Assembly: GCF_011765625.1 (NCBI RefSeq)
Contig: NZ_CP050315.1
Location: 1 to 64,000 of the forward strand
From: Shewanella aestuarii
GTDB taxonomy: Bacteria > Pseudomonadota > Gammaproteobacteria > Enterobacterales > Shewanellaceae
Length of the DNA: 64,000 bases
Direction of reading: 5' to 3'
Below are positions 2,934-63,582 of this stretch, piece by piece. The first letter of the stretch is position 1; every line of letters starts with the position of its first letter. The notes beneath the pieces are model-generated. The model was not told where the DNA came from. It saw nothing but the letters and a program-made list of their open reading frames with translations, and did no database searches. Position numbers and translations under genes: made by a program.

Positions 2934-2955
2934 ACTTAAAACGTGCATGATAAGT
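2934..2955. promoter_or_regulatory. Plasmid-wide palindromic operator, site 1
   Basis: Left half ACTTAAAAC, centre GTGC, right half ATGATAAGT (perfect 9/9 match to the inferred right half-site). It lies 19 bases before the ATG of the operon containing the Sno helicase and TopA. Assigned by comparison with the other copies in this window. Confidence 0.6.
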
Positions 2956-2974
2956 TCATTTTGGGGAGACAGTG

Positions 2975-4228
2975 ATGTCAAAATTACAATTTTTTGAAAA
3001 AGCGGTTAACAAGGCCATCACCAGCAAAAGCAGTAATGAGCGCCTAACTATTCCACTGCAAGTCGAGAGTTACAATATCGATCCTCACAACTTAGGTAAC
3101 TCATCAGTCATGGGGCATCATTATTTCACGCAAGAGAAAATGGAATTCAGAATTAATAAATCCTCAAATCCAAACCAGCCGACCATAGCTGGTTTTAAAG
3201 CTTTAGAGGAAGGCGCAGATCCAAAGTTTGAGTACAGCGTTCCGAAGAACGGCGTCATTATGTTTATGGATTGCAAGAAACAAGAAGATGGCACGTATAC
3301 AGCAGAGTGGGCAAAAAGCGCGATACGAAAAAATCACCAATCTATAGTCAATAGCTTCTCAACCGTTAAGGCCGTTAAACAATACGGTGACAAACCACCC
3401 TATATTTTATTTGACTCATACATTCCAAAATTATCTACCAGTATGAATTTCTCAAGCGTTAAGAGTGCCGACCAAATTAAAGCGCTCATTGTTCAAGCGC
3501 TAGAGCCAAAATTTGGCGTGGAAGGCAATCGCTCAATCGCACTCTTGCGCATTATGTCGAGTGATAAAGATGAAAATGTCATGACATTCGAAATCACAGG
3601 GATGAAAAAGTCTGGTGGCAGCGGGAAGCAAATAAATTGCACCGGCGAAGAATCGTTTAATCATTTTATCAAAGATGGCATGGGTAAAGTTATCTTTAAA
3701 GATGGTGCGATTGAAAATTTGTTGGGCAGTGATTTAACTGTAGAAGTTGTGCCTGGTGTCAGTTATTTCGCTGGGAAATCTGCATCGGAACAATATTTCT
3801 ATACACCAGAAGAAATACAAGCTGAAAACAAGAGTGCCGATTTGGTGGGTACGCTCAAACCAAAAACAATTATGTCAGTGTGGTCTAACATGCTGAATAA
3901 AGTGGAATTAGTCAAAGATGACGCGGGTAATGAGAGTAAGGTACGCAAGGCTAAAGTGATGGATATGTACTTAACGACCGCACAGTTGGAAGATAAGACT
4001 AAATTAGTCACGGCGTTCAATACCGAAACAACCAGCCAGAAAATATATGATTTAAGCGAGTTACCTACCGAAACGTTAGCGAGAGTGCGTGGTAATACAG
4101 TAACAGCTGAAGACAAACAAACCAAAGAAGCACAGCCCCTGCGAATAATTCTTCTCCAAATGAAGAAAAAGGCAATAGCTCGACACAAGCAAAACCAAAG
4201 GTCGAAGATGATGATATGTCGGATATGA
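2975..4228 (+). CDS. Unknown protein at head of helicase/topoisomerase operon; 3' end frameshifted
   Basis: About 417 residues as read, start at ATG 2975 (GGGGAG six bases upstream; an in-frame GTG at 2972 is too close to it). Mostly soluble, mixed alpha/beta in character, with a lysine-rich N-terminus and no signal peptide or membrane segment. I do not recognise a family. The last about 30 residues are basic and out of character. In the +1 frame, from about 4140, the sequence instead encodes a Ser/Asn-rich linker and a very acidic tail ending at the stop codon 4294-4296, five bases before the next gene. Restoring one C in the CCCC run at 4136-4139 joins the two into a single protein of about 440 residues. 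An acidic tail of this kind occurs in some ssDNA-binding or replication partners, but that is speculation. Confidence 0.65.
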   Translation: MSKLQFFEKAVNKAITSKSSNERLTIPLQVESYNIDPHNLGNSSVMGHHYFTQEKMEFRINKSSNPNQPTIAGFKALEEGADPKFEYSVPKNGVIMFMDCKKQEDGTYTAEWAKSAIRKNHQSIVNSFSTVKAVKQYGDKPPYILFDSYIPKLSTSMNFSSVKSADQIKALIVQALEPKFGVEGNRSIALLRIMSSDKDENVMTFEITGMKKSGGSGKQINCTGEESFNHFIKDGMGKVIFKDGAIENLLGSDLTVEVVPGVSYFAGKSASEQYFYTPEEIQAENKSADLVGTLKPKTIMSVWSNMLNKVELVKDDAGNESKVRKAKVMDMYLTTAQLEDKTKLVTAFNTETTSQKIYDLSELPTETLARVRGNTVTAEDKQTKEAQPLRIILLQMKKKAIARHKQNQRSKMMICRI

Positions 4229-4296
4229 ACTTCGATCTGTCAGAAGAAGACATGGCAGAGCTAAATGAGATAAGCCGCAGTATGAAAATGGGGTAA
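4133..4296 (+). pseudogene. Displaced acidic C-terminal tail of the preceding gene
   Basis: Reading frame +1 relative to the upstream ORF. From about 4140 it encodes NNSSPNEEKG followed by a strongly acidic stretch with DDDMSDMNFDLSEEDMAELN, ending with TAA at 4294-4296. Codon use and amino-acid composition look like real coding sequence, and the tail ends just before the Sno helicase start, as expected in an operon. The break sits at CAGCCCCTGCG, where one extra C would restore the frame (Q-P-P-A-N-N). Confidence 0.6.
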
Positions 4297-4301
4297 GGAT
4301 C

Positions 4302-7300
4302 ATGAGTCAGACAAAGAAATGGTTACACTTTCATGAGCATAATTGTTTTTTAGTGCCAGCTGTCTTGCCATCAAAAAGAAACGTACTTTTGATGGTAGGC
4401 TCGCTTTCAGATCCGCGCTCAAAGGAAGGGCTGGAAAAGCTAGGATTTAAGGCAACATCGGAAAACACCTATTATGCGACAAAATACTCTAAAGAAGGTG
4501 GGAAAGTAGAGGGTTTAGATATCAAAGCGTTTAAGACGTATTGGCCCTCTCTCACGCTAGAAGAAGTACCATTGGATTTTGTCTACAGACCATGGACGCT
4601 CGTAAAAGAAACATTGTCTTCACCGAGCAACCCAAAACCAAAAATTAAAAAAGTGGCTAATAAGCGCTCAGAAGTGGCGCCGGAGCCTAAGCAAGAGGTC
4701 ACGTTAAAGTCGGAAGTAGTAAGGCTTCAACAATCAACATTCTTGGGACGTAATCATTTAGGTGAAAAAGTCTATGAAGATGCAGAAGGTCGTTTCAGTG
4801 CAAATGACGATCAAGGTGTAAATCAATGGGTAATGGGAACAGATGATGCACGATACCTATTTGCTATAGCCGCAGTACGCTACAACTCAACAGCAAAAGT
4901 GGATGGCATCCTTCAGTGTGCTGAAGGGTTAGTGAATGATTTACTGGAAACGAATCAAAAAATGACATTCGAGCAGATTGCGAGAGTGGCATCGGTTTGG
5001 TTTGATATTTCAGAAGAAAAACTCGCTGAACGTTCTGATAAAGGTATACCACTGATGATGGCTGTGCAAAGATCTGCAGAAACGGTCATCGCATCAAAAC
5101 TTGCCGCAGCAAAAGCAAGTGCAGAAAATTTAACGCATGAAGAGTCGATTGTCTTAGTTAACAAATACACTCACTTACACACCATTAAGCCACATATCTC
5201 AAATGAAAAAATTCAACAGATAACTGGAAATGATTTCATTGCATTTACCCCAGAGCCATTACCAGTTTTCAGCAAGGTCGCAGGTGATTTTACTCGTGAT
5301 ATGCCTGAAGGCAGCAAGCTAGTTATACCTTTCGCATCAGTAGGCGGGATATTGCCTTTTATAGAGCCGCATTTGAAAGTTGAGCTTGTTGGGCATAAAG
5401 GTGAGATGGGGATTTCCAAATTTGGCAAGCCAACGTACTTCCCCAAAAATGTGAATTTTACTGAAAGAGATCTTCATAATGGCGCAGTAGAAAGTAAAAG
5501 CGCAGATTGTATGGTGTTAAACGCACCTGTCGGCAATCTCGCTTCGACCATCTCTGTAGACGGTGTAACAGTTAATCGCTATGACCATAAAATTGCCATC
5601 GAGTTAATACGTGCTATTAAAGATGATGGTAAGGCTTTACTCTTGGTTAACGTAGATGACCCCAGTGGTGTTGGCCATGTGAAAAATGAATCCAAAGAAT
5701 TTCATGATTTTCTATACCAAAACTACAATGTCACAGCGAACATCGATTTTAATCCAGCAAATGCTAGTGCGAAGAGGATCTACGCAATCAGCGGTAGAAA
5801 ACCCATAGCTTCTAGCAATGTTACCATTCCATATGAACTAAAAACGGTCTATACCAATGAGCAATTAATTAGCTGGGTAGGGGTAAAGGAAAACTTTATC
5901 TACAATGATGTAGATTCAATCGAGTCAATCATTAACAACCTCTCTGCTAAAGATATCCAAATAAATGAATACCAGTCCGAATATAGTTCCTTAAGTCAAC
6001 TTGGAAATGCCAGCTCTAAAATACCCAAAAATCTGAGCGTTGCAGTGCGCCAAGGGTTTACCCGTTTCTTATCGGCTCATGACAACATCGATGAGTTTGT
6101 CGGCACTAAATTACAGATGGATAGCGATCAACTTGAGCGAGTGTTTACGCCTGAGCAGATAGACGCAATTGGTCTTGCAATATGGCGAGATGAAAATGGT
6201 TTAGGTTTTTTAAATGGTGACAAGACGGGCGAAGGTAAAGGCCGTGTCAATGCCGCAATGATCCGCTACAACATTCTACAAGGAAGAGAAGCCATCTTTA
6301 TGACGTCAAAAGCGACGCTTTTCCAAGATATATGGCGAGACATTGTAGGTATTGAATCTGATAACCTGATAAAGCCGTTTCTAGTAAATGAAAAATCCAA
6401 CATCATTGATGATAATGGAAATGTGATATATCAAGCCAATCAGCTTCAGACTGCAATGATGGTTAAGCAGCATAAATACCCAGATGACTGCAATTTGTTG
6501 ATGGTGACATATTCACAATTAAGTCGAGCAACAAAATACGAAATGGTCAACAATCAAAAAGTGGCTATTCGTGATAAAGCGTCTTGGCTGCAAGCAATCG
6601 CACCCAATAGATTTGTCAATCTAGATGAATCCCATTTAGCATCAGGCAATTCCAACACCAACACTCGTATTCTAAATGTACTGAGCAATGCGTCAAATGT
6701 GATGTATTCGTCAGGTACATGGGCAAGGACCGAGAAAAACTTCGGCGTTTATTACCGCTTATTGCGAGATATCGAACCTGAAATCATCCAACAAGCTGTA
6801 AAAAAAGGCGGCAACGTATTGCTGGAAATATTCTCAGCATCATTAGCCTCTGATGGTGGGTTTATACGCCGTGAGAGTGATATTTCTAGTATCACGATTG
6901 AGCCCAAGAAGAATGTAGCCGATTTGCAAAAAAATATCGCTTTAAGCGATGCCTTTGCGAATGTGGCACAGGCGCTTGCGATTATGAGTGGCGGTCTGAA
7001 CCGAGTCGTAAATGAGAAAAACCAAAAGTTAGCGGATGCGCTGAAAGCAAGCGGAAAAACGCGAGGCGTCGGCAAAGATATGGGTTTAAATTCGACTGGT
7101 TTTGGTTCGCTTTTATCTAATTTGTCGAAACAATTTGTGTTGGCTTTGAATAGTGATTTTGCTGCAGAGCAAGCCATAGAATCACTTAAGAAAAACGAAA
7201 AGCCGTTTGTGGCATTGGAGTTCGCAGGCAATTCATTTTATAAAATGATGTATGACGAACAAACTAAGCTCATCGCGCAAGGCAAAGCGCCAAGTGATTA

Positions 7301-9548
7301 CACACTCGCCAAGCCATTACAATTTCGCGATTTGTTCACCATGACGCTTGAACGGTTGTTAATAGTGACTGATAGCAAAACCGGAAAGGTTGTCCCTGTT
7401 ACTAGCCTCATGGAACCAAACAAAGCGCAGCAATTCAACAATCTGGTAAAAGAGATACGCCTTGAAATCGCCAATATGCCAGATCTTGCTTTTATGCCGG
7501 TTGACAATATACGCCACAAAGTCGAAGCGGCTGGCTATTCCTTTGCCGAAGTATCAGGGCGTAATATTCGTATAGATTTGCGTAAGGATGGAACATATCA
7601 GTTTGTGAAATACGAAAAGCCATCGCCATTGAGTGTGCGAAATGCATTTAACAATGGTGATTTGGATGTCCTGCTAGGCACCAAATCGATGGTCGATGGC
7701 GTCAGTATTCATGCGGATATTAATTTTAAAGATCAGAGGGTACGTCGATTAATTGAAGTCGAGGTATTCAGAAACGTAACTGATCGTGTGCAACTACTCG
7801 GTCGCGTTAATCGTCGCGGTCAGGTAACAAATCCAGTTGTCAGTACGTTGAGCTGTGGGTTGCCAGCCCAAGAAAGATTAAATGCAATGTCTAATTATTC
7901 GCTTATCAAAATGAGCGCAAACATGACCAGTAATCAAGACAGTGCATTGTCTTTGGATACCATCAACCTGCTAAATGAAGAAGGTGATATGGTTTGTCAT
8001 AAATATCTCGAAGCCAACCCTCACTATATTCATAAGCTTGGCTTAAACCCAAGCGACATCTATGTCGAGAATATTACAAAATCAAGTGTTGAATCACTAG
8101 CGAGAAAATTAACGGGTCGATTAATCCTACTGCCTTACTTAGCTCAGGAAAAAGTGTATACAGAGTTGTGTAAAGAATATGACTCGAAGATCATCGAGTT
8201 AAACAATCAAGGCATCAACCCATTAAAACCCACATTTATGGATATCAAGGCTACAGAAATAAGCCGTCAAATTTATAAAGGGGTGCAGCGTAATTCCTAT
8301 CCATCAATTTTCGATGAGCCAGTCAGTATTGTGGAAGTTGAATATCAAGAGGAAGTCAAACCATGGGATACAGACCGCGTACTCGATAAGATGGAGATGT
8401 CAGAGGCCTCTTTAAATAAAGATGCTCGTATCAAAGACGGCTCATTGGGTAACCTAGCAAATATCATTAAGGCTGAACTAGACACCTTGCTACTCGAAGC
8501 TTGCGACGGTGACCAAGACTTATTAGATAGCATCATTCTAGATCGAAATAACCGTTTATTTGCCAACGCATCAGGTACTGCATATAAGCCGATGCAATGG
8601 AATTCCATGCTTGATTTGGTGAATAAAATGGTAAATAGAACGGATTATCTAATGGATATCTTGCCGAAAATTAAAATTGGTTCAGTCATCGAATTACCGA
8701 ATAGCTTCTATTCGAGTTTTAATCTGAAAGGTGATTGCGTGATAACCGATATTAAATTACCTGCGCAGGGTTCAGAACACAATCCATCGCAATATTCATT
8801 TACCGTAATCACCCCTGGTGATACAGAAGAAATGATATTGAATCTAGGTAGCTTTTTTAACTCAAGAGACAATTCGTTTGTCAAAGCTGCAGTGTTTGAT
8901 GAGTTTTCATCACTCGCAACAGAGTTCGATTCATATCAACCCGGCAAAGTTTATCGCAACGCAGTCATGCTAGAAGGTAATTTATTCGCGGCAGCATTAG
9001 AAGCTGCAGATGAGGGGCTGGGTAAGCCAGTGACCTATACCAATGAAGATGGTGTAGAAAAAAGAGCTATTCTGTTAAAACACGATCTGACAGTTAAAGC
9101 CATGCTTCATAAGCCAGTCTTTATTCATAATCACAAAATGGCTGCGGATCACCTTAGAGATTCCAAAGATGGGTATATTTGTACCAGCGATAAACGGAGT
9201 GACGAAGGCGCTTTAACAATCCACATTTCAGCAACTAGAGACTCTTACACGCTAATGCTGTCATCAGGTGTGAGAAGAGCAAAGCCTTTCACTGATAACC
9301 AAGATTTTATGGATGCGATTAATGGCCGCAATGTGATGTCAACAAGGTCGTTTAACAAATTCGAGATTTATGAAGATGAACTCGATAGCGCAATGCGAGC
9401 AATGTACAAAATGGGCATTAAATTTAAGACCAAAGTAGATGGTGTTAAATGGATAAATCAATATGAGAACCACCAAATAAACGTGCAGTCACCATTGGTT
9501 CATCCAAAAAAGCATCAGCAGCATGCATCAACGATTAAAACTGCGTAA
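4302..9548 (+). CDS. Strawberry-notch-type SF2 helicase with degenerate N6-methylase-like domain
   Basis: A 1748-residue protein, one of the largest in the window. Residues about 330-420 resemble a SAM-dependent N6-adenine methylase core (FASVGG, then NAPVG near 406 where active enzymes have NPPF/Y), so catalysis is probably lost. An SF2 motor follows: Walker A GDKTGEGKGR near 640, a DESH box near 774-777, and a C-terminal motif VI LGRVNRRGQ near 1165. This layout matches the strawberry notch (Sno) family of giant helicase-like proteins found on large plasmids and phages, whose biochemical role in bacteria is not settled. The last about 400 residues are unassigned. It is followed within 10 bases by a small acidic gene and then TopA, suggesting joint work on plasmid DNA topology, replication or transfer. 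Confidence 0.8.
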   Translation: MSQTKKWLHFHEHNCFLVPAVLPSKRNVLLMVGSLSDPRSKEGLEKLGFKATSENTYYATKYSKEGGKVEGLDIKAFKTYWPSLTLEEVPLDFVYRPWTLVKETLSSPSNPKPKIKKVANKRSEVAPEPKQEVTLKSEVVRLQQSTFLGRNHLGEKVYEDAEGRFSANDDQGVNQWVMGTDDARYLFAIAAVRYNSTAKVDGILQCAEGLVNDLLETNQKMTFEQIARVASVWFDISEEKLAERSDKGIPLMMAVQRSAETVIASKLAAAKASAENLTHEESIVLVNKYTHLHTIKPHISNEKIQQITGNDFIAFTPEPLPVFSKVAGDFTRDMPEGSKLVIPFASVGGILPFIEPHLKVELVGHKGEMGISKFGKPTYFPKNVNFTERDLHNGAVESKSADCMVLNAPVGNLASTISVDGVTVNRYDHKIAIELIRAIKDDGKALLLVNVDDPSGVGHVKNESKEFHDFLYQNYNVTANIDFNPANASAKRIYAISGRKPIASSNVTIPYELKTVYTNEQLISWVGVKENFIYNDVDSIESIINNLSAKDIQINEYQSEYSSLSQLGNASSKIPKNLSVAVRQGFTRFLSAHDNIDEFVGTKLQMDSDQLERVFTPEQIDAIGLAIWRDENGLGFLNGDKTGEGKGRVNAAMIRYNILQGREAIFMTSKATLFQDIWRDIVGIESDNLIKPFLVNEKSNIIDDNGNVIYQANQLQTAMMVKQHKYPDDCNLLMVTYSQLSRATKYEMVNNQKVAIRDKASWLQAIAPNRFVNLDESHLASGNSNTNTRILNVLSNASNVMYSSGTWARTEKNFGVYYRLLRDIEPEIIQQAVKKGGNVLLEIFSASLASDGGFIRRESDISSITIEPKKNVADLQKNIALSDAFANVAQALAIMSGGLNRVVNEKNQKLADALKASGKTRGVGKDMGLNSTGFGSLLSNLSKQFVLALNSDFAAEQAIESLKKNEKPFVALEFAGNSFYKMMYDEQTKLIAQGKAPSDYTLAKPLQFRDLFTMTLERLLIVTDSKTGKVVPVTSLMEPNKAQQFNNLVKEIRLEIANMPDLAFMPVDNIRHKVEAAGYSFAEVSGRNIRIDLRKDGTYQFVKYEKPSPLSVRNAFNNGDLDVLLGTKSMVDGVSIHADINFKDQRVRRLIEVEVFRNVTDRVQLLGRVNRRGQVTNPVVSTLSCGLPAQERLNAMSNYSLIKMSANMTSNQDSALSLDTINLLNEEGDMVCHKYLEANPHYIHKLGLNPSDIYVENITKSSVESLARKLTGRLILLPYLAQEKVYTELCKEYDSKIIELNNQGINPLKPTFMDIKATEISRQIYKGVQRNSYPSIFDEPVSIVEVEYQEEVKPWDTDRVLDKMEMSEASLNKDARIKDGSLGNLANIIKAELDTLLLEACDGDQDLLDSIILDRNNRLFANASGTAYKPMQWNSMLDLVNKMVNRTDYLMDILPKIKIGSVIELPNSFYSSFNLKGDCVITDIKLPAQGSEHNPSQYSFTVITPGDTEEMILNLGSFFNSRDNSFVKAAVFDEFSSLATEFDSYQPGKVYRNAVMLEGNLFAAALEAADEGLGKPVTYTNEDGVEKRAILLKHDLTVKAMLHKPVFIHNHKMAADHLRDSKDGYICTSDKRSDEGALTIHISATRDSYTLMLSSGVRRAKPFTDNQDFMDAINGRNVMSTRSFNKFEIYEDELDSAMRAMYKMGIKFKTKVDGVKWINQYENHQINVQSPLVHPKKHQQHASTIKTA

Positions 9549-9558
9549 GGAATTCATC

Positions 9559-9846
9559 ATGGAAAAGTTATTACAGTTAATAGCAACAATGGGCATTCAA
9601 TTAGACGACAGCTTTAATGGTGTTTATGTGATTGAAGAAAATGATTGCCGATTATCGCTGGATAATTGGATTGATGATGAAGATCAGAGGTTTTCTATTG
9701 AATATATCGATCCTGCTATCGAACAAACCATTTTCGAACTCACAATCAATGAACATGGTGAATTCATAGAGGCAAACTACGCAGGAGACAAAATAGAAGA
9801 AGACGACTTCGAAAATGAATTAGAAGAAAGATTCAACTGGGCGTAA
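9559..9846 (+). CDS. Small acidic protein between Sno helicase and TopA
   Basis: A 95-residue, highly acidic soluble protein (runs such as DDEDQ and EEDDFENELEE). I place the start at ATG 9559, which has AAGGA seven bases upstream; the open frame extends back into the helicase gene but without a better start. No family recognised. It sits 10 bases after the helicase stop and 4 bases before topA, so the three genes are almost certainly co-transcribed. Strong negative charge would suit a DNA mimic or a helicase/topoisomerase partner, but nothing in the sequence proves this. Confidence 0.65.
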   Translation: MEKLLQLIATMGIQLDDSFNGVYVIEENDCRLSLDNWIDDEDQRFSIEYIDPAIEQTIFELTINEHGEFIEANYAGDKIEEDDFENELEERFNWA

Positions 9847-9850
9847 AGCT

Positions 9851-11968
9851 ATGACTAAATTAGTTTTTGTCGAATCACCTGGGAAGATAAAGAAAATTGA
9901 GTCTTATTTAGGCGAAGGCTGGAAGGTCAGATCATCGGTTGGCCATATACGAGATTTACCGCAAAAGAAATTAGGGGTGGATACGCAAACTATGAGCCCT
10001 CACTATGAGCTGACAGAGCGTGGTGCAGAGGTTGTAGGGAAATTACGAAGTGAGGTAGCCAAGGCGTCTGAGGTTTATCTGGCAACGGATTTGGACCGAG
10101 AAGGGGAAGCTATTGCATGGCATCTTCAGCAAGTCTTTAATCTACCCGCCAATTGCAAGCGGATTGTGTTCAATGAAATTACCGCCACTGCGATAAAAAA
10201 AGCGATTAGTCAGCCAAGAGAGATAGATTTAGATTTGGTGCATGCACAAGAAGCCCGAAGAATACTCGACAGGTTAGTTGGATACACCGTTTCACCAATG
10301 CTTAATAAGTTGAACTTGTCAGGTGCGGTGAGTGCAGGTCGTGTCCAATCAATTGCATTAAAATTAGTAGTAGAGCGCCAAATGCTGATCGATGCCCATC
10401 AATCAGAACTGTACTTTTACATCGATGCAAAATTTGAAGGCTGGAAAGCGACATTTACGGGTGAATTAAACGCGCCAGAGGATTACAAAGATACAAAAGC
10501 ATATCGAATGACGGATAAAGGGCTATGTGTCAGATTAACCGGTGCATTAAATCAAAATCCTGAATTGAAAGTTGCAAATATCGACCAAAAAGTAAGAAAA
10601 AAAGCTGCCCCAGCCCCCTTTACCACATCCGTTCTTCAACAAGCTGCGAGTGTCGCTTTAAAAATATCACCAGATGAAACGATGAAGTTAGCCCAAACGC
10701 TTTATGAAAAAGGCTTGATAACCTACATGAGAACGGATTCCGTCTTTCTATCAGAAGATTCTGTCAACTCGATAAGAAGTTGGATATCCAAATTTCAAGA
10801 TAAAAAAGGGGTAGATTGGCTTTTACCCGATAGACCTAATCAATTTAAAGGTGCATCAGGTGCGCAAGAGGCACACGAGGCAATAAGACCGAGTGATATA
10901 TTCGATATAAATCCAGATATTGATGGTCAGGCTAAGGCATTATACCAATTAATTTGGAAAAGGACGGTAGCCAGCCAATGTGCAGCCGCTGAGATAGATC
11001 AGGTAAAAGTAAAATTGATATCGCGTTTAAAAATCAATGAAAAAAATGTGACTTTTGAAGCCAAAGGCGAAACAATTCTTATACCAGGCTGGTTATTCAT
11101 TTCAGGCCAAGATAAATCAGACGAATCAGAAGGTGACGATAACCAAAAGCTACCCAATATGGACGTAGGTTCGATTATTAAGCCGATACAGTATGATTTA
11201 GAAGAAAAACGGACTAAACCGCCGAAAAGATATACTGAAGCTGCGTTAGTAAAGGAGTTAGAAAACAAGGGTGTTGGAAGGCCATCAACATATGCCTCAA
11301 TCATGAAGACCATCATCTCGCGAAAGTACGTAAAAGTAGAATCGAGATTGTTGGCCCCGACTGCGCTAGGTGTAGAGCTATATAAAGCAATCAACAACTC
11401 TAATTTCAGCTTTTTTGATTATGGCTACACACAACAGGTCGAATCAAAATTGGATTCTATTGCATCTAATAACCTACAAAGCAAGCAATTCCTACTCAAT
11501 GAGTTTTCAATTTTAGCAAATGAGATGAGGGCGTTGAGCTCACAAACAGATCAGCACAGAGAGAATTTTAAGTGCTGCAAATGCGGTGGTGATGTCTATA
11601 CAGTGAACGGAAAATATGGCGCATATCTAGCCTGCTGCCTTTGCATGCAAAAGCATGACAAGGAAGGTAATGCAGTCGTTCCCAAGCCTAAAAACTACAT
11701 TGCGACCAAATGTAACGTCTGCTCAAGTGCCATGCTGGAACTCAATACAAAGCCAGATAACCCCAAGTATTTTAAATGTGAAAAATGTGATTATCTTGTC
11801 GGTGCAACTTCTGATGGGTGTATTGATGTCGCTAAGATGCCCAGAGTATCAACGGAAACGTGCGAGACACATAAAAAGCCGCTGCTCATTAAATTTAATG
11901 CAAAGGGCGAGGAATATAGCGTCTGCCCAAAATGCAAGCCCAAACCTTCACGAAAATCCAAAAAATAA
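9851..11968 (+). CDS. topA: DNA topoisomerase I, type IA (TopA-like)
   Basis: A 705-residue type IA topoisomerase, which relaxes negatively supercoiled DNA through a covalent tyrosine link. The TOPRIM domain is at the N-terminus (FVESPGK, SVGHIRDLP, then the acidic motif TDLDREGEAIAWHL near 78-91). The active-site region ITYMRTDS lies near 290-297, with the tyrosine as the nucleophile. The C-terminal about 140 residues hold zinc-ribbon cysteine sets (CCKCGG...CCLC, CNVC...CEKC, and CETH...CPKC). It is shorter than chromosomal TopA (about 865 residues), as is usual for plasmid-borne copies. It ends the operon that contains the Sno helicase. IncI and related plasmids may carry their own topoisomerase for transfer or decatenation. 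Confidence 0.93.
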   Translation: MTKLVFVESPGKIKKIESYLGEGWKVRSSVGHIRDLPQKKLGVDTQTMSPHYELTERGAEVVGKLRSEVAKASEVYLATDLDREGEAIAWHLQQVFNLPANCKRIVFNEITATAIKKAISQPREIDLDLVHAQEARRILDRLVGYTVSPMLNKLNLSGAVSAGRVQSIALKLVVERQMLIDAHQSELYFYIDAKFEGWKATFTGELNAPEDYKDTKAYRMTDKGLCVRLTGALNQNPELKVANIDQKVRKKAAPAPFTTSVLQQAASVALKISPDETMKLAQTLYEKGLITYMRTDSVFLSEDSVNSIRSWISKFQDKKGVDWLLPDRPNQFKGASGAQEAHEAIRPSDIFDINPDIDGQAKALYQLIWKRTVASQCAAAEIDQVKVKLISRLKINEKNVTFEAKGETILIPGWLFISGQDKSDESEGDDNQKLPNMDVGSIIKPIQYDLEEKRTKPPKRYTEAALVKELENKGVGRPSTYASIMKTIISRKYVKVESRLLAPTALGVELYKAINNSNFSFFDYGYTQQVESKLDSIASNNLQSKQFLLNEFSILANEMRALSSQTDQHRENFKCCKCGGDVYTVNGKYGAYLACCLCMQKHDKEGNAVVPKPKNYIATKCNVCSSAMLELNTKPDNPKYFKCEKCDYLVGATSDGCIDVAKMPRVSTETCETHKKPLLIKFNAKGEEYSVCPKCKPKPSRKSKK

Positions 11969-12063: not shown

Positions 12064-12085
12064 ACTTTTCATGTATCTGATTAGG
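12064..12085. promoter_or_regulatory. Plasmid-wide palindromic operator, site 2
   Basis: Left half ACTTTTCAT (8/9), centre GTAT, right half CTGATTAGG. AATAAT lies directly upstream (12056-12061) as a plausible -10 box, so the element would cover the transcription start. The ATG of the next gene is 10 bases downstream and the ribosome binding site AGGAG overlaps the right half. Confidence 0.6.
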
Positions 12086-12095: not shown

Positions 12096-12767
12096 ATGGC
12101 TGAGCTAAAAGTAGACACAAAAAATATTGATGATGAGCTTTATGAAGCGACACTGGATATCGCACTTGATACAGCAGCTGAATTAATGGTGTTGACCGGT
12201 AGCGATACCTTCAAGGCAGCAAGAGACTTATTATTAAAATCTTCATTAACATTGGCTGCGTCAGGTGCTGTTGCAACTGTCGCTGCAATGGGAACAAAGA
12301 TTGCGACGGCATTTCAGCGAATGGATATTTCAGACTCGCAAACGTCAGCGGTGATGATGGTAAGCAATTTTTTGAATAATGAAGCCGTGTTGAACTCAGC
12401 TATGACGATAGGCACCGTGGGTACCATTGGGGCTGTTGCCGCGATGAGCGTAAAGAGTCTTGTTAATGCAGTAAATGACATATCAGTAAAAATGGACCCA
12501 ACAATTATAGCGAAGCGCCAAACCGCCTTGGCAAATGCGTATGGTGAAATATTTGCCTATGGCGAAAAGCATTTTAACGATAGATCTCAACACAACATAG
12601 ATGCCAGTTATGAGGTGTTAAGACCAATGGCTGAAAAAATAGGTTTTGAAGGCGATGATAAAGGCGATTTTGTTATTTATGAATGGCTGTCGAAATACAC
12701 TGGTGAACCCATGTCACCAAATGATGAGGATGCGCCGAAGATTTTGAATAAAGACAAGAGGTTATAG
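12096..12767 (+). CDS. Unknown protein with two glycine/alanine-rich hydrophobic segments
   Basis: A 223-residue protein with an acidic N-terminal helix, two similar hydrophobic segments (about residues 48-70 and 105-130, both rich in Ala, Gly, Thr and Val), and a hydrophilic, acidic C-terminal third. No signal peptide. The two hydrophobic segments share the pattern A-T-V-A-A-M, hinting at an internal duplication. It has its own operator-type promoter and stands alone between topA and a convergent HU-like gene. No family recognised; an inner-membrane accessory protein is the best guess. Confidence 0.65.
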   Translation: MAELKVDTKNIDDELYEATLDIALDTAAELMVLTGSDTFKAARDLLLKSSLTLAASGAVATVAAMGTKIATAFQRMDISDSQTSAVMMVSNFLNNEAVLNSAMTIGTVGTIGAVAAMSVKSLVNAVNDISVKMDPTIIAKRQTALANAYGEIFAYGEKHFNDRSQHNIDASYEVLRPMAEKIGFEGDDKGDFVIYEWLSKYTGEPMSPNDEDAPKILNKDKRL

Positions 12768-12811: not shown

Positions 12812-13261
12812 TTATTGGGTGTCTGAATTAGGAACGTTCAAATTATCAGAGACAGTTTGGCGTAATTTTTTATCACAAGTAGAATGGAATGAAGTACCTT
12901 TCTCACGCAGTAGAGTAGAGTGTTTAGTCACTACATCAAACTTAGCAGGCTGACCTCTTATTTTTATTTCAGTGCCATCGCTAGTGCGTCTTTTCCCCGC
13001 TTTTCGAGGCTTTCTAACAACACGTTCAAACGTAATTAACCCGTCAATTTTTACTGTATCTAACTTTATGTCGAGCAATTGACAATAAACAGAATGAGTT
13101 AACGCTTTAAGGGTGTCGATGACTTCTTGCCTTTGAACACCAGATATTTCAGAAATCAGAGTGACTTGATCACGCATGCAAAGAGGTTGATTAAGATCAA
13201 TCGAAAGTCGTTCTGATGTCGTCTTGAACAATTGAACGGTATTTTTGTTAAGTACGCTCAT
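12812..13261 (-). CDS. HU/IHF-like DNA-binding protein with extra C-terminal tail
   Basis: A 149-residue reverse-strand protein. Residues about 27-125 follow the HU/IHF pattern: an N-terminal helical part (MRDQVTLISEISGV...VIDTLKAL), a strand turn GLITFERV, then a basic beta-arm region (RKPRKAGKRRTSDGTEIKI) and a short closing helix. Typical HU proteins are about 90 residues, so there is an N-terminal extension of about 25 residues and a C-terminal tail of about 25 residues. HU-family proteins bend DNA and act as architectural regulators. It is divergent from the ferredoxin operon and could autoregulate from the 13262-13378 region. It is a candidate plasmid regulator, but nothing ties it to the repeated operator. 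Confidence 0.65.
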   Translation of the reverse strand: MSVLNKNTVQLFKTTSERLSIDLNQPLCMRDQVTLISEISGVQRQEVIDTLKALTHSVYCQLLDIKLDTVKIDGLITFERVVRKPRKAGKRRTSDGTEIKIRGQPAKFDVVTKHSTLLREKGTSFHSTCDKKLRQTVSDNLNVPNSDTQ

Positions 13262-13334
13262 CCTGTTAATTCCCTATTTTAATAACACCAATAAAATACT
13301 ATTATAATTTGACGATCAAATCAACTTTTGTGAT

Positions 13335-32865: not shown

Positions 32866-32888
32866 ATATTGATATGAATGGTGGACCT

Positions 32889-44022: not shown

Positions 44023-44034
44023 GAAGTGAGCGCA

Positions 44035-48023: not shown

Positions 48024-48071
48024 GTAAATTATGTTGTAATGTTATTGCTAAGCAAAAGAGAAGGATTAGTT

Positions 48072-55581: not shown

Positions 55582-55603
55582 ACTTATCATATACACGATA
55601 CAG
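55582..55603. promoter_or_regulatory. Plasmid-wide palindromic operator, site 10
   Basis: Left half ACTTATCAT (perfect), centre ATAC, right half ACGATACAG (5/9), 11 bases before the ATG of the first pilin. ATTAAT directly upstream (55574-55579) may be the -10 box. Confidence 0.6.
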
Positions 55604-55614: not shown

Positions 55615-56064
55615 ATGAAAGTAAATAAAAGGCAAGCTGGCTTCACAATTATGGAATTGGTGGTAGCACTGGGCGTGATGGGCATATTAATGGCCATTGC
55701 ATCAAAAGCGTTCAATGACACCTCTATGGCTGAGTCACATCGATTGCAGACAGATATCGATAAGATAGCTGCACAGACCGTTAAATACGCCGCAGGGGGT
55801 GTGTTTACAGGAGTTTCAATCAATGTTTTATGCACTGACAAGTACCTCAATACCGATGTGTGTGGCACTGGTGATGGTGCTGGTGCTAACCCCTGGGCAG
55901 GCAACTACAGCGTAGTCGCGTCAGGAACCAACCGATTTTTGGTGACTGTGACAGATGTGCCAACCAACGTGGGACCACAAATTGCGAAATACTATTCAAA
56001 GACTGCGCGTAGCGTGAACTACGTGCCTGGTACGAAGGCGTTGACGTTAATTTTCGGTACCTAA
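55615..56064 (+). CDS. pilS: Major thin-pilus prepilin, copy 1 (PilS-like)
   Basis: A 149-residue type IV prepilin. The leader is short (MKVNKRQAG) with cleavage between Gly9 and Phe10; the mature N-terminus FTIMELVVALGVMG keeps Glu5. The C-terminal disulfide loop is probable from two cysteines (LCTDK and VCGTG). It is about 80 percent alike to the next gene, with the strongest difference around the S-I-N-V-L-C-T-D-K segment. Major pilin of the thin pilus is the most likely role; the prepilin peptidase needed for it is not in the window. Confidence 0.88.
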   Translation: MKVNKRQAGFTIMELVVALGVMGILMAIASKAFNDTSMAESHRLQTDIDKIAAQTVKYAAGGVFTGVSINVLCTDKYLNTDVCGTGDGAGANPWAGNYSVVASGTNRFLVTVTDVPTNVGPQIAKYYSKTARSVNYVPGTKALTLIFGT

Positions 56065-56123
56065 TTAACTTCATGTCGCATTTGCAGCGATTAACACAAT
56101 GATAGCTAGAAGGGAAAGTAATT

Positions 56124-56579
56124 ATGTTAAAGAGTCAATTTAGAAAACAAACCGGCTTCACCATAATGGAGTTGGTCGTAGCGCTCGGAGTCATGGGCAT
56201 ATTAATGGCCATTGCATCAAAAGCGTTCAACGATACTTCAATGGCAGAATCACATCGATTACAAACAGATATCGACAAGATTGCCGCCCAAACAGTAAAA
56301 TTTGCAGCGGGTGGTGTATTTACTGGGGTAACGATGGGGCAGTTATGCTCGCAACAGTATTTAAATGCCGATGTATGTGGCTCAGGTGACGGTGCTGGTG
56401 CAAACCCATGGGCGGGTAACTACACTGTAGCGGCATCAGGAACCAACCGATTTCAAGTTACTGTAACCGCTGTGCCAACCAATGTCGGGCCGCAGATTGC
56501 CAAATACTATTCAAAGACTGCGCGTAGCGTTAACTATGCATCAGGCTCAACGACATTAACGTTAATTTTCGGTACCTAG
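56124..56579 (+). CDS. pilS: Major thin-pilus prepilin, copy 2 (PilS-like)
   Basis: A 151-residue type IV prepilin with leader MLKSQFRKQTG and mature start FTIMELVVALGVMG. It is a tandem duplicate of the preceding pilin: the first about 60 mature residues are almost identical, including long identical DNA around 55679-55715 and 56190-56225, and the C-terminal G-A-G-A-N-P-W-A-G-N-Y and N-V-G-P-Q-I-A-K-Y-Y-S-K blocks match. The segment around the first cysteine differs (T-M-G-Q-L-C-S-Q-Q). RBS AGAAGGGA lies upstream. Confidence 0.88.
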   Translation: MLKSQFRKQTGFTIMELVVALGVMGILMAIASKAFNDTSMAESHRLQTDIDKIAAQTVKFAAGGVFTGVTMGQLCSQQYLNADVCGSGDGAGANPWAGNYTVAASGTNRFQVTVTAVPTNVGPQIAKYYSKTARSVNYASGSTTLTLIFGT

Positions 56580-56580
56580 C

Positions 56581-57087
56581 ATGATGTATTCTCATGGCAA
56601 GCAATCAGGGTTCACGTTACTGCATGTCGTGGCTCTGATTAGCTTTATGGGAATGGTGTTAGCGCTCAACGCAAAGTTAACGGCTGACACGCATGTTGAA
56701 AATCAGATCTATATGAGCAAGCTCGCTATCGATGAGTTAAAAGCGGCATATAGTGACTACTACGCAGGACAATGCAGTGCATTTCTCAATGCGCCATCAA
56801 TCTCGACATTAAAGTCGCAAGGCTATTTGGCCACGACGTTTAATGAAAGCATCCCCAATGCAGGACCAATCACCCTCGGTGCATCCAAAAACATCGACAA
56901 CATGCAAGTGTTGAGCATCAATTTGACCTTCGATACACCCGCGTTTGCAAAGTACGCATGGAACGAAATGAGCGGTGAAGGGATCATCCTATCAGACAAA
57001 AGAACCTATCAAATATCATTCTTCCCCTATGTTATTGGCGAAAGAGGTGCGAGTTACACTTGGTTCTCTTCATCAAACTGCCCATAA
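56581..57087 (+). CDS. Minor prepilin lacking Glu5
   Basis: A 168-residue prepilin-like protein with leader MMYSHGKQSG and mature start FTLLHVVALISFMGM. Position 5 of the mature protein is His instead of the near-invariant Glu. In type II secretion and type IV pili, a pilin lacking Glu5 (GspK, for instance) usually sits at the tip, since it needs no partner below Phe1 of a preceding subunit. Two cysteines (QCSAF and SNCP at the very end) may pair. It follows the second pilS by one base. Confidence 0.75.
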   Translation: MMYSHGKQSGFTLLHVVALISFMGMVLALNAKLTADTHVENQIYMSKLAIDELKAAYSDYYAGQCSAFLNAPSISTLKSQGYLATTFNESIPNAGPITLGASKNIDNMQVLSINLTFDTPAFAKYAWNEMSGEGIILSDKRTYQISFFPYVIGERGASYTWFSSSNCP

Positions 57088-57146: not shown

Positions 57147-57168
57147 ATTTTATAAGTACCTGATAAGT
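57147..57168. promoter_or_regulatory. Plasmid-wide palindromic operator, site 11
   Basis: Right half CTGATAAGT (8/9), centre GTAC, left half ATTTTATAA (4/9). TTATAA immediately upstream of the GTAC is a possible -10 box. It lies about 20 bases before the ATG of the first PilV-like gene. Confidence 0.55.
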
Positions 57169-57187
57169 ATTCTAGATGGATTCGGCT

Positions 57188-60100
57188 ATGAGCGTAAAAT
57201 TGAAAATATCACTCTTGCTACTCGCTTTTATGACGAGCGGTAGTTTTGCTCAAGATCCACAGGAAATAGCAAACCGCGAAGCGGAATTTGCAGCAACGAA
57301 CTTAAAGCAATACAAAGAAGCTGCGATAGCGGTATATCAAACGACAGGTTTCTGGCCAACAAGTGTCACCAACCTCAACAGCAAGATGCCCGTTGTGCCT
57401 AAATTCACTGGCGCATACAAATCGCCATCTATTGTCCATAACGCAAATGGTTCGGTGTCGATTACCATTCAAGCAGGCAGCGCCCAAGAAGCTAAGCGAT
57501 TAGCAGGATTGGCGGGTGAGGTTTATAGCATCAATGGCTCAACAGTAAGCCTATTAGTCACGCCACCCGCAGGCAGTAATCTACGTTCTGTATACAAAGA
57601 CCAGATTGTTACTACAAATCAAAACGAATTCTCAGTGATAGATGATATATCCCTTGGCGGTAACAAAATACTGAATGCGCAATCGATAGATGTGAATACA
57701 GCAAATCTAAAGTGCCTCACGTTAGGTTCAAGCAAGATTTGTGAAAATACGTCTGGAATATTGGATGTGACAACCGATCTTGCAAGCATTGCAGGAACGG
57801 GGCAGGTAGATGAGACAATAACGGCGGGAGTAGTTGAGGTATTAAACAAGTTAAAAACAAATGAGATGTCACTGAGCGAATTAGCCGCCACAAATACGGT
57901 AGTGACAGATCTGATTGTCACAGCTGCCAATCTAGATCAAGCGCAAATCAATTTAATGGACGCCATTACTGCCACAATGAAGGATGTATTAGTTGGCGAG
58001 TTAACGGTAACAGGCTCAAGTAAGCTGGCAGATCTTCTCGCAACCGATGGGTCATTAGCAACCATCACGGGCAAAGATTTGAATGTCTCGGGCGTTGCGG
58101 TAATGAATACTTTGCAAGCCAATGGTCTTCTGGCTGGCAATGCGTTTGTAGATGCAGCAAATGTCCAAAACTTGATAACGAATGTAGGTTCAATCACGAA
58201 TCTAAAAACTAATCTGATGGAAACCAACAGGATTTTAGCTGAGCAAGGCCTGTTAGCAGATATAAAAGCAATAACAGCGGATTTTAACTCAGCAACGATA
58301 GAGGACGGGGATGCTGTCACGCTAAACGCGCAATCGTTTAAAGGCAAAATTGTACAGTTAGGTGCTGCTGTCGTGAATGCGACACTCACCGTAAATCAAC
58401 TTGATGTGAATCGGATCGAGTCAGACACGGCAAACATAAAGTCTCTACAAACGGAAACAGGCACAATCAAGACGCTAAATGCAAATACCACCACAGTCAC
58501 CGGAGATACGAAAACAGCCAGCCTTGAAGTCGCAGGGGATGCAAGTTTTGGGGCGAATTTAACAGTTAACAACGCTGTCTCGACCAAAGATTTAGTTACG
58601 AACAATTTAAATGTGACTAATTTAATCGAAATGATGGATTTGGTTGTCGAAAATAGCATGCTAACTGCTTACCTTAATGGGCTAAATTCCACGATAACGG
58701 CAGACAAGATATCTTATTGGGCTGGTACGGGGCCAGCTCATCGTGTTACAAGTGACCGTTTCGTCAGCGATAGCATAAAGATTAATAATGGTACATTCTA
58801 TGCCGATGATGCAAGCATAGAAACGGTGACGGCTGGGGATCTTCGGGTATCAAGTATGTCGGAATATGGCACATATGGAAGCCAAAAAGCATCTGGAACA
58901 CTTACAGCTGCGAGCGTGAATGTCAGAGGTATTACAACAGCAAACGAAGTTGATGCGGATGTGATGACAGCAACCACCATGAACTCAACAGATTGGCAGT
59001 CCACAACGCTCAATGCAAAATCCCTAATCACACAATACAATGCAGCATTAGCAAAGGCCGTCATACAAAATATGACAGCGACCAATTCAGCAATCGGTAC
59101 TGCAACCGGTGAAAGCTTAGCGCTAACAGGTGATCTCTCAGCCAATTCTGGTTCTTTGCAAACAGTCAGAGTGACAGCGCAAGCCTTACTAGGTTCATTA
59201 GAATCAGGGCCAGCTGAAATGCAAGGCAATCTCTCAGTGGCTAACAATGTCAAAACAGCAAATTTAACTGCTAATACGATCAATGCGACACAATCAAGCA
59301 TAACAACACTGAAAGCCCAAGATATTACTGTTAATGGGCTGCTAAAGGGTGCAACCGTAAAAACGAATGCTGGTAATAGCTTGGCCAGTGTAAACAATCT
59401 CTATATAAATCATGAAGGCAGAATAATCAGTGTCGAGCAGTTCAGAACAGAATGTATCAATAATTGGGTTTATGCATGTGCTGGGACGCTACCGAGATTG
59501 AGCAATACAAACTGCGTAGGCTGTACGCAGAGCAGTTATAGCTCTGGCTCATTTAACGCTACAGCGTCAGCAACAATATTAGATTGTCCCGCCGGATGCG
59601 ATTACACATGGACAACAGGAAGTGGGATAGCTAAAGCAACATGCAGCAACGGAAGTGTCGGTTCAGGCCAAACTAAGACCGTATCATGTAGCGTTAGCAG
59701 TTCACCCGCTGTAAGCATAAATAGCACGTTAAGCAGTGTAATCAATCTAGAAGTTAAGCACTCTGGCAGAGCATCAATTAACGCAGGCAATAGCTATCCA
59801 ATCAGTTGGACGTTCACCGGTGAAACCCCAACGATATCATCTGCGTCATGCCCAGAATGTTCATTTACAAAAAATAACATTAGCACTTTTACCGCGTTGT
59901 ACACAGCCAATATCGCCAATTGTTCGGCAGGCTGTAATTATCAATGGGTATTCGGAAGCGGGATCGCTGCTGATATCTGTACAAATGGTTCAGTTGCCGC
60001 AGGGCAAACGAAAGGTGTCAGCTGTAAAATCAAAGCTAGCCCTGGTGTTAATGCAGGTACGGTGCTAAATAGCACGTTAAAACTGGTTGTAATGAATGCG

Positions 60101-61111
60101 CAAAGTGCCAGCCAAACAGCGAGCAATACGCAGACGGTACGATGGGAAAACCAAAAAATAACCCCCGAACCGACAATCACATATACCTCTTGCAAATTCG
60201 TTAATAATGGCGGCGCATGCTCGTCACCAGGCGTGGGTTCAGGTGGGTACCTTGATGTGATGGTTACTTACACCATTTCAAACTGTGACCCTTCATGTAC
60301 GTTAACAACGACACTCGGATCAGGTTTAACCCCTGTCACTTGTTCAACCCAAACTGTGACTGGCAATACAACCGCTACCTGTCGTTTTAGAAACACCAAT
60401 CCACTGTCATTAGGGCAATCGCTAACGACCACAATTGCAAAAGCAAAAGTGGTAAATAATGATGATGCAACGAAGACATCCGAAGTTACGGCCATTCCGC
60501 TGCAATTGCAAAATGGAACTGCGCCCGTCGCTGCGCCATCTGTGACACTCGGCTGCACTGGCTGTAGCCAAAGTGTAGAGGCAAAATCCAGTTTTACAGC
60601 GACGGCAAATGGTTCGATCACGACATGCGATGGCGGCTGTACATACACATGGGCGCTCGGGGGTGGATTGACCAAAAACATTTGTAACAATGGCTCAGTC
60701 AATTCCGGTGGCTCGTCATCACCGTCATGCTCATTCAAAAACACCTCTGCTGTAGCAGAAGGCACTACCTTAGCAAGTACAGTCTCGCTAACCGCAACCA
60801 ATATTGGTGACACAAGCAAGAAAACAACTAAATCATTTAGTGTGACTTGGGAAAATATTAAGCCCGCACCAGCTAAAGGGTTCTGGAGTGGCAATCCATT
60901 TACCACGATTTATTCAACTATATACTTCAGTTCTAATTGTCCTTCACCAGTATTCACAGATTTAGATGGTAAAGGCTATAAGACCGAACAACAGCAAGTA
61001 CCTAAACAAACAACAGAAGAGTGCAATATTGGTGATACATGGCGTTCTTTCAGGCTTGAGTACGCAGGAAATGGATGTCGTGGACATATTCAGGAACAGG
61101 TCTGTAAGTAA
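57188..61111 (+). CDS. Giant PilV-like adhesin with C-terminal Cys-rich repeats
   Basis: About 1307 residues from ATG 57188 (ATG 57176 has no RBS). It has a Sec signal peptide (to about residue 24, S-F-A-Q) rather than a prepilin leader, then a pilin-like helix (N-L-K-Q-Y-K-E-A-A-I-A-V-Y-Q). Residues about 140-770 are a long beta-solenoid-like series of short repeats (L-x-V-x-x-x, Thr/Asn/Ala-rich). The C-terminal third has four modules of about 110 residues (starting near 776, 887, 1000 and 1122), each with C-x-x-C, C-x-x-x-C and two further cysteines, then a unique end. By position it is a PilV-type tip adhesin for mating-pair recognition, though PilV usually has a prepilin leader. Confidence 0.7.
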   Translation: MSVKLKISLLLLAFMTSGSFAQDPQEIANREAEFAATNLKQYKEAAIAVYQTTGFWPTSVTNLNSKMPVVPKFTGAYKSPSIVHNANGSVSITIQAGSAQEAKRLAGLAGEVYSINGSTVSLLVTPPAGSNLRSVYKDQIVTTNQNEFSVIDDISLGGNKILNAQSIDVNTANLKCLTLGSSKICENTSGILDVTTDLASIAGTGQVDETITAGVVEVLNKLKTNEMSLSELAATNTVVTDLIVTAANLDQAQINLMDAITATMKDVLVGELTVTGSSKLADLLATDGSLATITGKDLNVSGVAVMNTLQANGLLAGNAFVDAANVQNLITNVGSITNLKTNLMETNRILAEQGLLADIKAITADFNSATIEDGDAVTLNAQSFKGKIVQLGAAVVNATLTVNQLDVNRIESDTANIKSLQTETGTIKTLNANTTTVTGDTKTASLEVAGDASFGANLTVNNAVSTKDLVTNNLNVTNLIEMMDLVVENSMLTAYLNGLNSTITADKISYWAGTGPAHRVTSDRFVSDSIKINNGTFYADDASIETVTAGDLRVSSMSEYGTYGSQKASGTLTAASVNVRGITTANEVDADVMTATTMNSTDWQSTTLNAKSLITQYNAALAKAVIQNMTATNSAIGTATGESLALTGDLSANSGSLQTVRVTAQALLGSLESGPAEMQGNLSVANNVKTANLTANTINATQSSITTLKAQDITVNGLLKGATVKTNAGNSLASVNNLYINHEGRIISVEQFRTECINNWVYACAGTLPRLSNTNCVGCTQSSYSSGSFNATASATILDCPAGCDYTWTTGSGIAKATCSNGSVGSGQTKTVSCSVSSSPAVSINSTLSSVINLEVKHSGRASINAGNSYPISWTFTGETPTISSASCPECSFTKNNISTFTALYTANIANCSAGCNYQWVFGSGIAADICTNGSVAAGQTKGVSCKIKASPGVNAGTVLNSTLKLVVMNAQSASQTASNTQTVRWENQKITPEPTITYTSCKFVNNGGACSSPGVGSGGYLDVMVTYTISNCDPSCTLTTTLGSGLTPVTCSTQTVTGNTTATCRFRNTNPLSLGQSLTTTIAKAKVVNNDDATKTSEVTAIPLQLQNGTAPVAAPSVTLGCTGCSQSVEAKSSFTATANGSITTCDGGCTYTWALGGGLTKNICNNGSVNSGGSSSPSCSFKNTSAVAEGTTLASTVSLTATNIGDTSKKTTKSFSVTWENIKPAPAKGFWSGNPFTTIYSTIYFSSNCPSPVFTDLDGKGYKTEQQQVPKQTTEECNIGDTWRSFRLEYAGNGCRGHIQEQVCK

Positions 61112-63465: not shown

Positions 63466-63475
63466 ACTAAATCGT

Positions 63476-63491
63476 TTAAAGTAACTTTAAG
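63476..63491. repeat. Repeated palindrome TTAAAGTAACTTTAAG, copy 4
   Basis: One of four copies in the window. It lies 11 bases after the stop of the second PilV-like gene and overlaps the first bases of the terminator stem. Confidence 0.6.
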
Positions 63492-63516
63492 TCCACATGA
63501 ATGTGGACTTTTTTTT
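63489..63516 (+). terminator. Rho-independent terminator after PilV-like genes
   Basis: A 10-bp perfect stem (AAGTCCACAT / ATGTGGACTT) around a 2-base centre, followed by an eight-T run to 63516. Confidence 0.9.
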
Positions 63517-63529
63517 CGCCATAACATTA

Positions 63530-63582
63530 TTGAAGGTTTTGAATTTTTACGTTAGAATGTACTAAACAGGTACTAAATAAGT
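63530..63582 (+). promoter_or_regulatory. parM promoter with plasmid-wide operator, site 12
   Basis: -35 TTGAAG (63530-63535), 17-bp spacer, -10 TAGAAT (63553-63558), immediately followed by GTAC and the operator: left ACTAAACAG (6/9), centre GTAC, right TAAATAAGT (6/9). The three GTAC/GTGA words are spaced 11 bp. This is the clearest promoter-operator arrangement in the window and sits 8 bases before the parM ATG. Confidence 0.7.

Follow-up and report, generated by a model that had tools for sequence, protein, structure and literature searches.

What is the palindrome that recurs in front of so many genes at one end of a large Shewanella aestuarii plasmid, and what kind of factor would act on it? 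The stretch considered here, referred to as the window, comprises bases 1-64000 of contig NZ_CP050315.1, which at 212,170 base pairs (bp) is one of the three contigs of a 4.47-Mb genome. Judged by relatives of its proteins, this plasmid carries a Dot/Icm-type conjugation system, type IV pilus-like genes, parM, a strawberry-notch helicase and topA, together with a MoxR/VWA pair, parA/parB and an IncFII-like RepA. An initial annotation of the window had listed a palindromic element in front of twelve transcription units and proposed a regulon that spans the plasmid and includes transfer, pilus, partition, helicase/topoisomerase and MoxR genes. Such a regulon is supported by enrichment of the element in held-out DNA, by its placement, by its specificity for the plasmid and by its conservation at orthologous genes. 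From these comparisons of sequence, we put at roughly 0.7 the probability that a single global repressor encoded by the plasmid uses the element as its operator and covers the −10/start region in most promoters of the backbone.

Reading the sequences directly showed the element at all twelve listed positions, with the five perfect 9/9 half-sites where they had been placed, at 2947, 28316, 30739, 44014 and 55582. Three further strong sites are present in the window: 13324, in a divergent region, 48004, and 47541, which is inside a coding sequence. The core can be written as ACTTAT-NNN-RTAY-NNN-ATAAGT. The description of RTAC words repeated at 11-bp steps was correct in part: the centre is RTAY, the left flank often reads RT+AC and the third word on the right-hand side is weak. 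None of the sites comes within three mismatches of the perfect palindrome and the element is therefore visible only as a profile. Two matrices were used. The first was built only from the twelve window sites and compared with column-permuted versions. In the 148 kilobases (kb) of the S. aestuarii plasmid that it had not seen there were 42 strand-hits above 16 bits against a permuted mean of 0.28 and a maximum of 3 (n=100), most sites being matched on both strands because the site is a palindrome. The plasmid of S. xiamenensis FH-1 (NZ_CP106875.1, 244.6 kb), also unseen, gave 14 (permuted mean 0.63, maximum 3, n=60). The second matrix, symmetric and 22 bp long, was iterated over these two plasmids, so that its counts are in-sample on both: 48 sites above 11 bits (permuted mean 5.1, maximum 16) and 40 above 13 bits (1.8, maximum 10) for S. 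aestuarii, and 44 above 11 bits (7.1, maximum 15) for S. xiamenensis. Two contigs of S. inventionis were also compared, C24 and C8; in this species NZ_BMII01000024.1 (81,264 bases) encodes a relative, 91% identical, of the protein at window 39845-42787. Above 11 bits there were 23 sites in 80 kb of C24 (permuted mean 2.3, maximum 7) and 29 on C8, the latter counted without a permuted control. A motif-blind search for gapped palindromes enriched upstream of genes ranked ACTTA-N12-TAAGT first on the S. xiamenensis plasmid and joint first on the S. aestuarii plasmid, where it tied with its neighbour TACTT-N14-AAGTA.

Rather than being spread through coding DNA, the sites concentrate upstream of gene starts, the distance often being 9-30 bp. 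Of the sites above 13 bits, 37/40 in S. aestuarii, 16/19 and 22/27 on the S. inventionis contigs and 32/38 in S. xiamenensis have a start no more than 150 bp downstream, whereas 15.8, 17.3, 18.5 and 20.3% of random positions, respectively, do. Well inside coding sequence are 4/40, 2/19, 3/27 and 5/38, though 80-87% of the DNA is coding. The claim that nearly every transcription unit has a site is true of the window, with 17 of 20 starts, but not of the whole contig, with 52 of 119. The three window starts without a site are at base 1, at 4302, which is probably internal to an operon, and at 24933, a doubtful open reading frame (ORF). If the plasmid is circular and its ends join, the site starting at 212105 would stand directly before the gene that begins at base 1. 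Beyond the window the fraction of starts with a site is 8/14 at 64-81 kb, 19/50 at 81-152 kb, 0/22 at 152-186 kb and 8/13 thereafter. The site-free 34 kb, with its 22 transcription-unit starts, is probably a cargo region.

The position of the element relative to the promoter suggests how it may act. The −10-like box that had been described as abutting GTAC is present at 12064, 30739, 36047 and 63561, and the core often stands directly behind a −10-like ..AAT box, which would place the transcription start about seven bases after the box, in the left half-site. A protein bound here, predicted to be plasmid-encoded and dimeric or of higher order, would exclude RNA polymerase simultaneously from the majority of backbone promoters; since the element overlaps the −10/start region, its action is most simply read as repression. 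If the circuit resembles those of R388 and RK2, expression of the genes for transfer, pilus, partition and DNA processing would be kept low in established cells and would surge when the plasmid arrives in a cell that lacks the regulator. Alternatively, the element could be a part of the promoter through which a plasmid-encoded activator, or a factor that recognises promoters, turns on the backbone genes together. In most backbone transcription units of the window it does lie near the expected start, and it is absent from the probable cargo stretch (0/22 starts), as such a role would have it. Activators, however, usually bind upstream of the −35 region, and where a −10-like box is seen the palindrome comes after it. 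Moreover, all six regulators found in R388 were repressors (PMC3937220). An activator would seem unlikely.

Often found near the ribosome-binding region, the inverted repeat might be thought to fold, within the 5′ leader, into an RNA hairpin that affects stability or translation. When all 124 sites from the three Shewanella plasmids were compared with shuffles, no pair of positions showed an excess of complementarity (highest z 0.9), while three palindrome pairs were less complementary than the shuffles (z −2.1 to −3.0). At pairs 1-4, compensating changes numbered zero among 6, 11, 25 and 12 left-side deviations. As the arms are uncompensated, the element is likely to be a protein site that is read half by half. 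Single copies also serve divergent promoters, the three regions at 17946, 28316 and 44001 being as initially annotated. A hairpin is already contradicted by these results and we give it almost no credence.

Could the site belong to the host? With up to one mismatch the core pattern occurs 13 times on the S. aestuarii plasmid (0.21 Mb) and only three times in the remaining 4.26 Mb of the genome. Among 129 Shewanella genomes only two had an excess (16, control 1; 15, control 1), and both carry such a plasmid; the other 127 had six or fewer. The operator of a chromosomal regulator recruited by plasmids would account for our failure to tie any plasmid protein to site binding, but it is difficult to reconcile with this distribution. 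The half-sites also differ in Vibrio, AATAAT standing in place of ACTTAT, as would be expected if each plasmid carries its own regulator. A host regulator is therefore very improbable.

The element follows orthologous genes between sister plasmids, as had been proposed as a check, even though the proteins common to the Shewanella plasmids are mostly 25-57% identical. Where an S. aestuarii gene has a site its S. inventionis ortholog has one in 38/43 cases, compared with 4/85 for genes without a site (Fisher p 2e-22); the corresponding figures for S. xiamenensis are 23/35 and 7/56 (Fisher p 2e-7). At least two of the counted S. xiamenensis misses, parM and the ortholog of 2972-4228, do have sites, at 80781 and 34035, which were not counted because the ORF start used for counting hides them. 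In 29 unique pairs of S. aestuarii and S. inventionis orthologs, identity reaches 85% within the palindrome and 47% in the flanks, though the former value is inflated because the pairs were picked with the same matrix and aligned without gaps. A megablast search of window 40-64 kb against plasmids returned nothing useful, and viral contigs gave no relative by protein and no match by pattern. Three distant Shewanella relatives, searched over their first 20 kb, had above 13 bits no Shewanella-type sites and, in total, one of the Vibrio type described below.

Vibrio nigripulchritudo pVNTG2 (NZ_AP024090.1) shares the backbone with the S. aestuarii plasmid but lacks the Shewanella element, having three Shewanella-type sites above 11 bits. 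The motif-blind search on this plasmid placed ATATA-N3-TATAT first, followed by ATAAT-N8-ATTAT (24/29 upstream) and AATAA-N10-TTATT (25/33). The second and third of these describe a single palindrome of 20 bp, which was refined in-sample to AATAATRTRTAYAYATTATT and shares the RTAY centre of the Shewanella element. Above 11 bits pVNTG2 has 34 copies of it (permuted mean 3.8, maximum 16), of which 31 are within 150 bp of a start. Since the Vibrio palindrome is AT-rich like upstream DNA in general, the orthology test carries more weight: a Vibrio site precedes the pVNTG2 ortholog of 11/15 S. aestuarii genes that have a site and of 3/26 that do not (p 1e-4). Among the common targets are the gene in front of the helicase operon, DotI, parM, rdgC, a helicase, the gene at 69427, the gene for a HipA_C protein and an EAL gene. 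By these comparisons pVNTG2 carries the orthologous regulon on a re-lettered operator. The top-scoring Vibrio-type palindrome of pVNTG2, at 14149, has no annotated start downstream; it lies between genes that converge, 100 bp past a PadR-family gene. In 150 of the 292 kb of V. anguillarum p292 there are seven Vibrio-type sites above 11 bits (permuted mean 2.5, maximum 7) and six above 13 bits (0.9, maximum 4), and in addition one of 12.3 bits before parM; these are weak but suggestive signs of such sites near DotA, MoxR, EAL and parM. On Aeromonas caviae pAC1520 (NZ_CP120943.1), which was searched whole, there are only two Shewanella-type sites above 11 bits and both types are absent or nearly so, while 50 kb of V. 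alginolyticus pL280 gave one Vibrio-type and no Shewanella-type site above 13 bits. The regulon in these letters is thus not universal in the wider plasmid group. The motif-blind search on pAC1520 found only weak palindromes (best z 6.3). One of them, GCTTA-N12-TAAGC, has the half-site spacing of the Shewanella element (6/11 upstream, z 5.3) and may be an Aeromonas version of the operator, though with only one exact copy it was left unrefined.

parM is preceded by a site in S. aestuarii, S. inventionis, S. xiamenensis, pVNTG2 and p292, and a search for arrays directly beside this gene in S. aestuarii, or near it in S. inventionis, found none. This raises the question of whether the palindromes are a distributed centromere or nucleoid-type site, bound by a ParR- or ParB-like protein and found at promoters only because that is where intergenic space is available. 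The sites are, however, tied to gene starts and follow orthologous genes, and the 22 transcription-unit starts of 152-186 kb are free of them. It is another palindrome, the 13-bp TAAAGTnACTTTA, that is spread through coding and intergenic DNA in the way a partition-type site would be. We regard a centromere of this kind as quite unlikely.

If the element is the operator of a plasmid-encoded repressor, a gene for that repressor should be recognisable, and a number of candidates were considered. A ribbon-helix-helix-like protein (186717-187241) has a strand, KKSVRL, that is identical in S. xiamenensis. It was demoted because the BLAST search that recovered its S. xiamenensis ortholog matched it to none of the ORFs on the plasmid contigs of S. 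inventionis; the whole S. inventionis genome gave no match either, in a search made without a positive control. The HU-like protein (12812-13261, reverse strand) has its own site in all three Shewanella plasmids. Given the orthologous regulon of Vibrio the regulator is probably conserved in pVNTG2, which has no HU/IHF-family match at E≤1, and the HU-like protein was therefore demoted; a single-sequence AlphaFold2 model of it was uninformative, with a mean predicted local distance difference test score of 37.5. RepA (199062-200012) has a winged helix that is almost unchanged in all three Shewanella plasmids. It is an unlikely regulator, having a weak site of its own and 21-bp repeats of another sequence upstream in S. 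aestuarii, S. xiamenensis and S. inventionis (three copies). ParA is also unlikely, as the nearest site is about 240-300 bp upstream in S. aestuarii and S. inventionis and there is none in the 220 bp before S. xiamenensis parA. No convincing S. xiamenensis relative was found for the HTH_11 protein (113647-114252) or the HTH_43 protein (157560-157889), and no S. inventionis or S. xiamenensis relative for the coiled-coil protein at 65152-66051, which matches only coiled-coil families in Pfam and is KfrA-like by our own reading. The HipA_C protein (70167-72380) is behind the strongest site of the S. aestuarii plasmid, at 70129-70150, and pVNTG2 has the site too. Pfam gave it no convincing DNA-binding domain, its S. 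xiamenensis ortholog has no site in front, and p292 is not among its 13 matched Vibrio records, a complete list, though p292 seems to have Vibrio-type sites; it is an unlikely regulator. Profiles from the PDB matched none of the HU-like, 207324 and ParR-like families and gave one weak match for RepA (E 0.4).

The ParR-like protein encoded directly after parM, at contig 64630-65130, is a weak favourite. Its gene is behind parM in all five plasmids that have a site before parM. That it is a ribbon-helix-helix protein is our own reading, matched by no library, and it is poorly conserved, the third putative DNA-facing residue of its strand differing even between S. aestuarii and S. inventionis, which counts against it as the regulator. 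A search for tandem parC repeats in S. aestuarii and S. inventionis found none directly beside parM in the former and no tandem array at 46-50 kb of C24 in the latter. In S. aestuarii, however, parR itself contains nine-base repeats, and 0.9 kb behind it lies a 53-bp array of repeats of this length (66074-66126); this short array lowers the odds for ParR as master regulator. We think it improbable, though worth stating, that the ParR-like protein is the master regulator, that the approximately 40 palindromes are both promoter operators and a distributed centromere, and that in Vibrio the operator was re-lettered together with its ParR. Were this so, backbone expression, including that of transfer, would be tied to plasmid segregation.

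Several of these observations weigh against a global operator. No regulator candidate passed all tests, only 52/119 transcription-unit starts of the S. aestuarii plasmid have a site, some sites (4/40) are in coding DNA, and the related plasmids pAC1520 and pL280 lack the element. Specificity for the plasmid is swamped when two mismatches are allowed, with 71 places in the genome against 40 for a backward control. Gene starts were taken from a simple home-made ORF caller, which makes single site-to-start distances rough, and the identity of the palindrome between orthologs is overestimated. The −10-like flank is also ambiguous. At the one-directional sites of S. aestuarii and S. inventionis AAT at −5 to −3 is found in 25/55 on the sense side and 18/55 on the antisense side, and T at −3 in 48/55 and 35/55. 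In S. xiamenensis the figures are 2/20 sense and 4/20 antisense for AAT and 11 and 13 for T. As AAT occurs on the antisense side as well and shows no sense excess in S. xiamenensis, the flank may partly belong to the palindrome and not to a promoter.

With a plasmid-encoded repressor still the preferred reading, the putative operators of the window can be assigned to their genes. On the forward strand, 2934-2955 precedes 2972-4228, which is followed by the strawberry-notch helicase and topA, and the S. inventionis ortholog also has a site. The same is true of the S. xiamenensis ortholog of 12096-12767, which stands behind 12064-12085. The site at 13324-13345, absent from the initial annotation, serves both directions, between the HU-like gene (12812-13261, reverse) and a 2Fe-2S gene (13379-13636, forward). 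The forward site 15588-15609 is before 15638-16303, and 17946-17967, directed both ways, lies between 17401-17889 (reverse) and 17988-18530 (forward). Another two-way site, 28316-28337, separates the VWA operon (27559-28296, reverse) from the MoxR operon (28398-28964, forward). The VWA-domain protein at 25591-27546, adjoining the MoxR ATPase, has a long QQQGQQ tract, and its S. inventionis and S. xiamenensis relatives are about 30 residues shorter. Forward sites then follow at 30739-30760, before the operon of 30.7-32.7 kb, whose true start is probably near 30788, at 32844-32865, before the DotI/IcmL-like gene 32874-33584, for which the ortholog comparison includes pVNTG2, and at 36047-36068, before 36077-36958. 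The site 44001-44022 serves both a recombinase-like gene (43054-43956, reverse) and 44014-44580 (forward). The palindrome at 47541-47562 is strong, at 19.5 bits, but lies in a lytic transglycosylase-like coding sequence (47442-48023) with no obvious start behind it, and its function is doubtful. The remaining sites are all on the forward strand: 48004-48025, also new, before 48039-48995; 55582-55603, before the pilin-like genes of 55615-57087; 57147-57168, before 57176-61111; and 63561-63582, before parM (63591-64619), with the ParR-like gene coming next, outside the window. Sites before parM in pVNTG2 and p292 match this last one.

Other repeats were seen on the same plasmids. The palindrome TAAAGTnACTTTA has 20 exact copies around the S. 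aestuarii plasmid, four of them in the window (25511, 30699, 42785 and 63477) and 16 outside, with 18 copies on the S. inventionis contigs and one in S. xiamenensis. It is within 150 bp of a 22-bp site in 8/20 cases in S. aestuarii (random 6%), in 2/6 and 1/12 in S. inventionis and in 0/1 in S. xiamenensis, and resembles a KorB/parS-type distributed site. A ParB-like protein (HTH_ParB) is encoded at contig 192064-192918. Beside parA/parB, 194611-197801 of the S. aestuarii plasmid contains 50 copies of TTGAACnnGTTCAA at steps of about 64 bp, and 7582-10168 of NZ_CP106875.1, likewise beside parA/parB, contains 60 copies of GGCAACnGTTGCC, mostly at 44-bp steps; these arrays are possibly giant centromeres with unrelated letters. 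The 21-bp direct repeats of the CAGTTGAAA type upstream of the IncFII-like RepA, in S. aestuarii (L008:14922-15025) and S. xiamenensis (L011:14431-15126), are candidate replication iterons.

How does the proposed regulon compare with known systems? No literature on the element itself was found, in a search outside which most subscription papers lie. The omega protein of pSM19035, a partition protein of the ribbon-helix-helix type, has promoter operators that serve as a centromere as well. It offers a model for the ParR idea, differing in its few sites and in having heptad repeats in place of a 22-bp palindrome. A close likeness is to KorA/KorB of RK2, with palindromic operators at the core promoters of replication, partition and transfer genes; here such sites are at 17/20 starts in the window and 52/119 on the contig. 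The shorter palindrome of 13 bp, found near some operators mainly in S. aestuarii, may be a further likeness. KorA, though, has seven operators of 12 bp (PMC4889941), whereas here there is one 22-bp type with about 40 strong copies. In R388 backbone promoters are held down by six repressors with overlapping targets, with no activator found and two integron promoters left free (PMC3937220). The 34-kb stretch without a site recalls the free integron promoters, while one operator type, in place of six repressors, would cover 17/20 of the transcription-unit starts of the window. Cluster A mycobacteriophages have 20-30 stoperators for one repressor, with motifs that diverge between relatives (PMC6550527). 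Both systems have many sites spread over a mobile genome and motifs that diverge between relatives, but stoperators are asymmetric, 13-14 bp long, oriented, mostly away from promoters and stop elongation, unlike a palindrome with 37/40 sites near starts. By this comparison the conserved plasmid-wide operator regulon would be unusually large for known plasmid-repressor circuits: the cases compared have few operators per repressor, and here a single operator type occurs at about 40 places. Kept between divergent Shewanella plasmids and re-lettered as a set in a Vibrio plasmid, it would be a natural experiment in how the DNA code of a regulon changes. The element also helps to tell backbone genes from cargo, and provides a defined bait sequence for seeking the master switch of a large and little-studied group of Dot/Icm-type conjugative plasmids.

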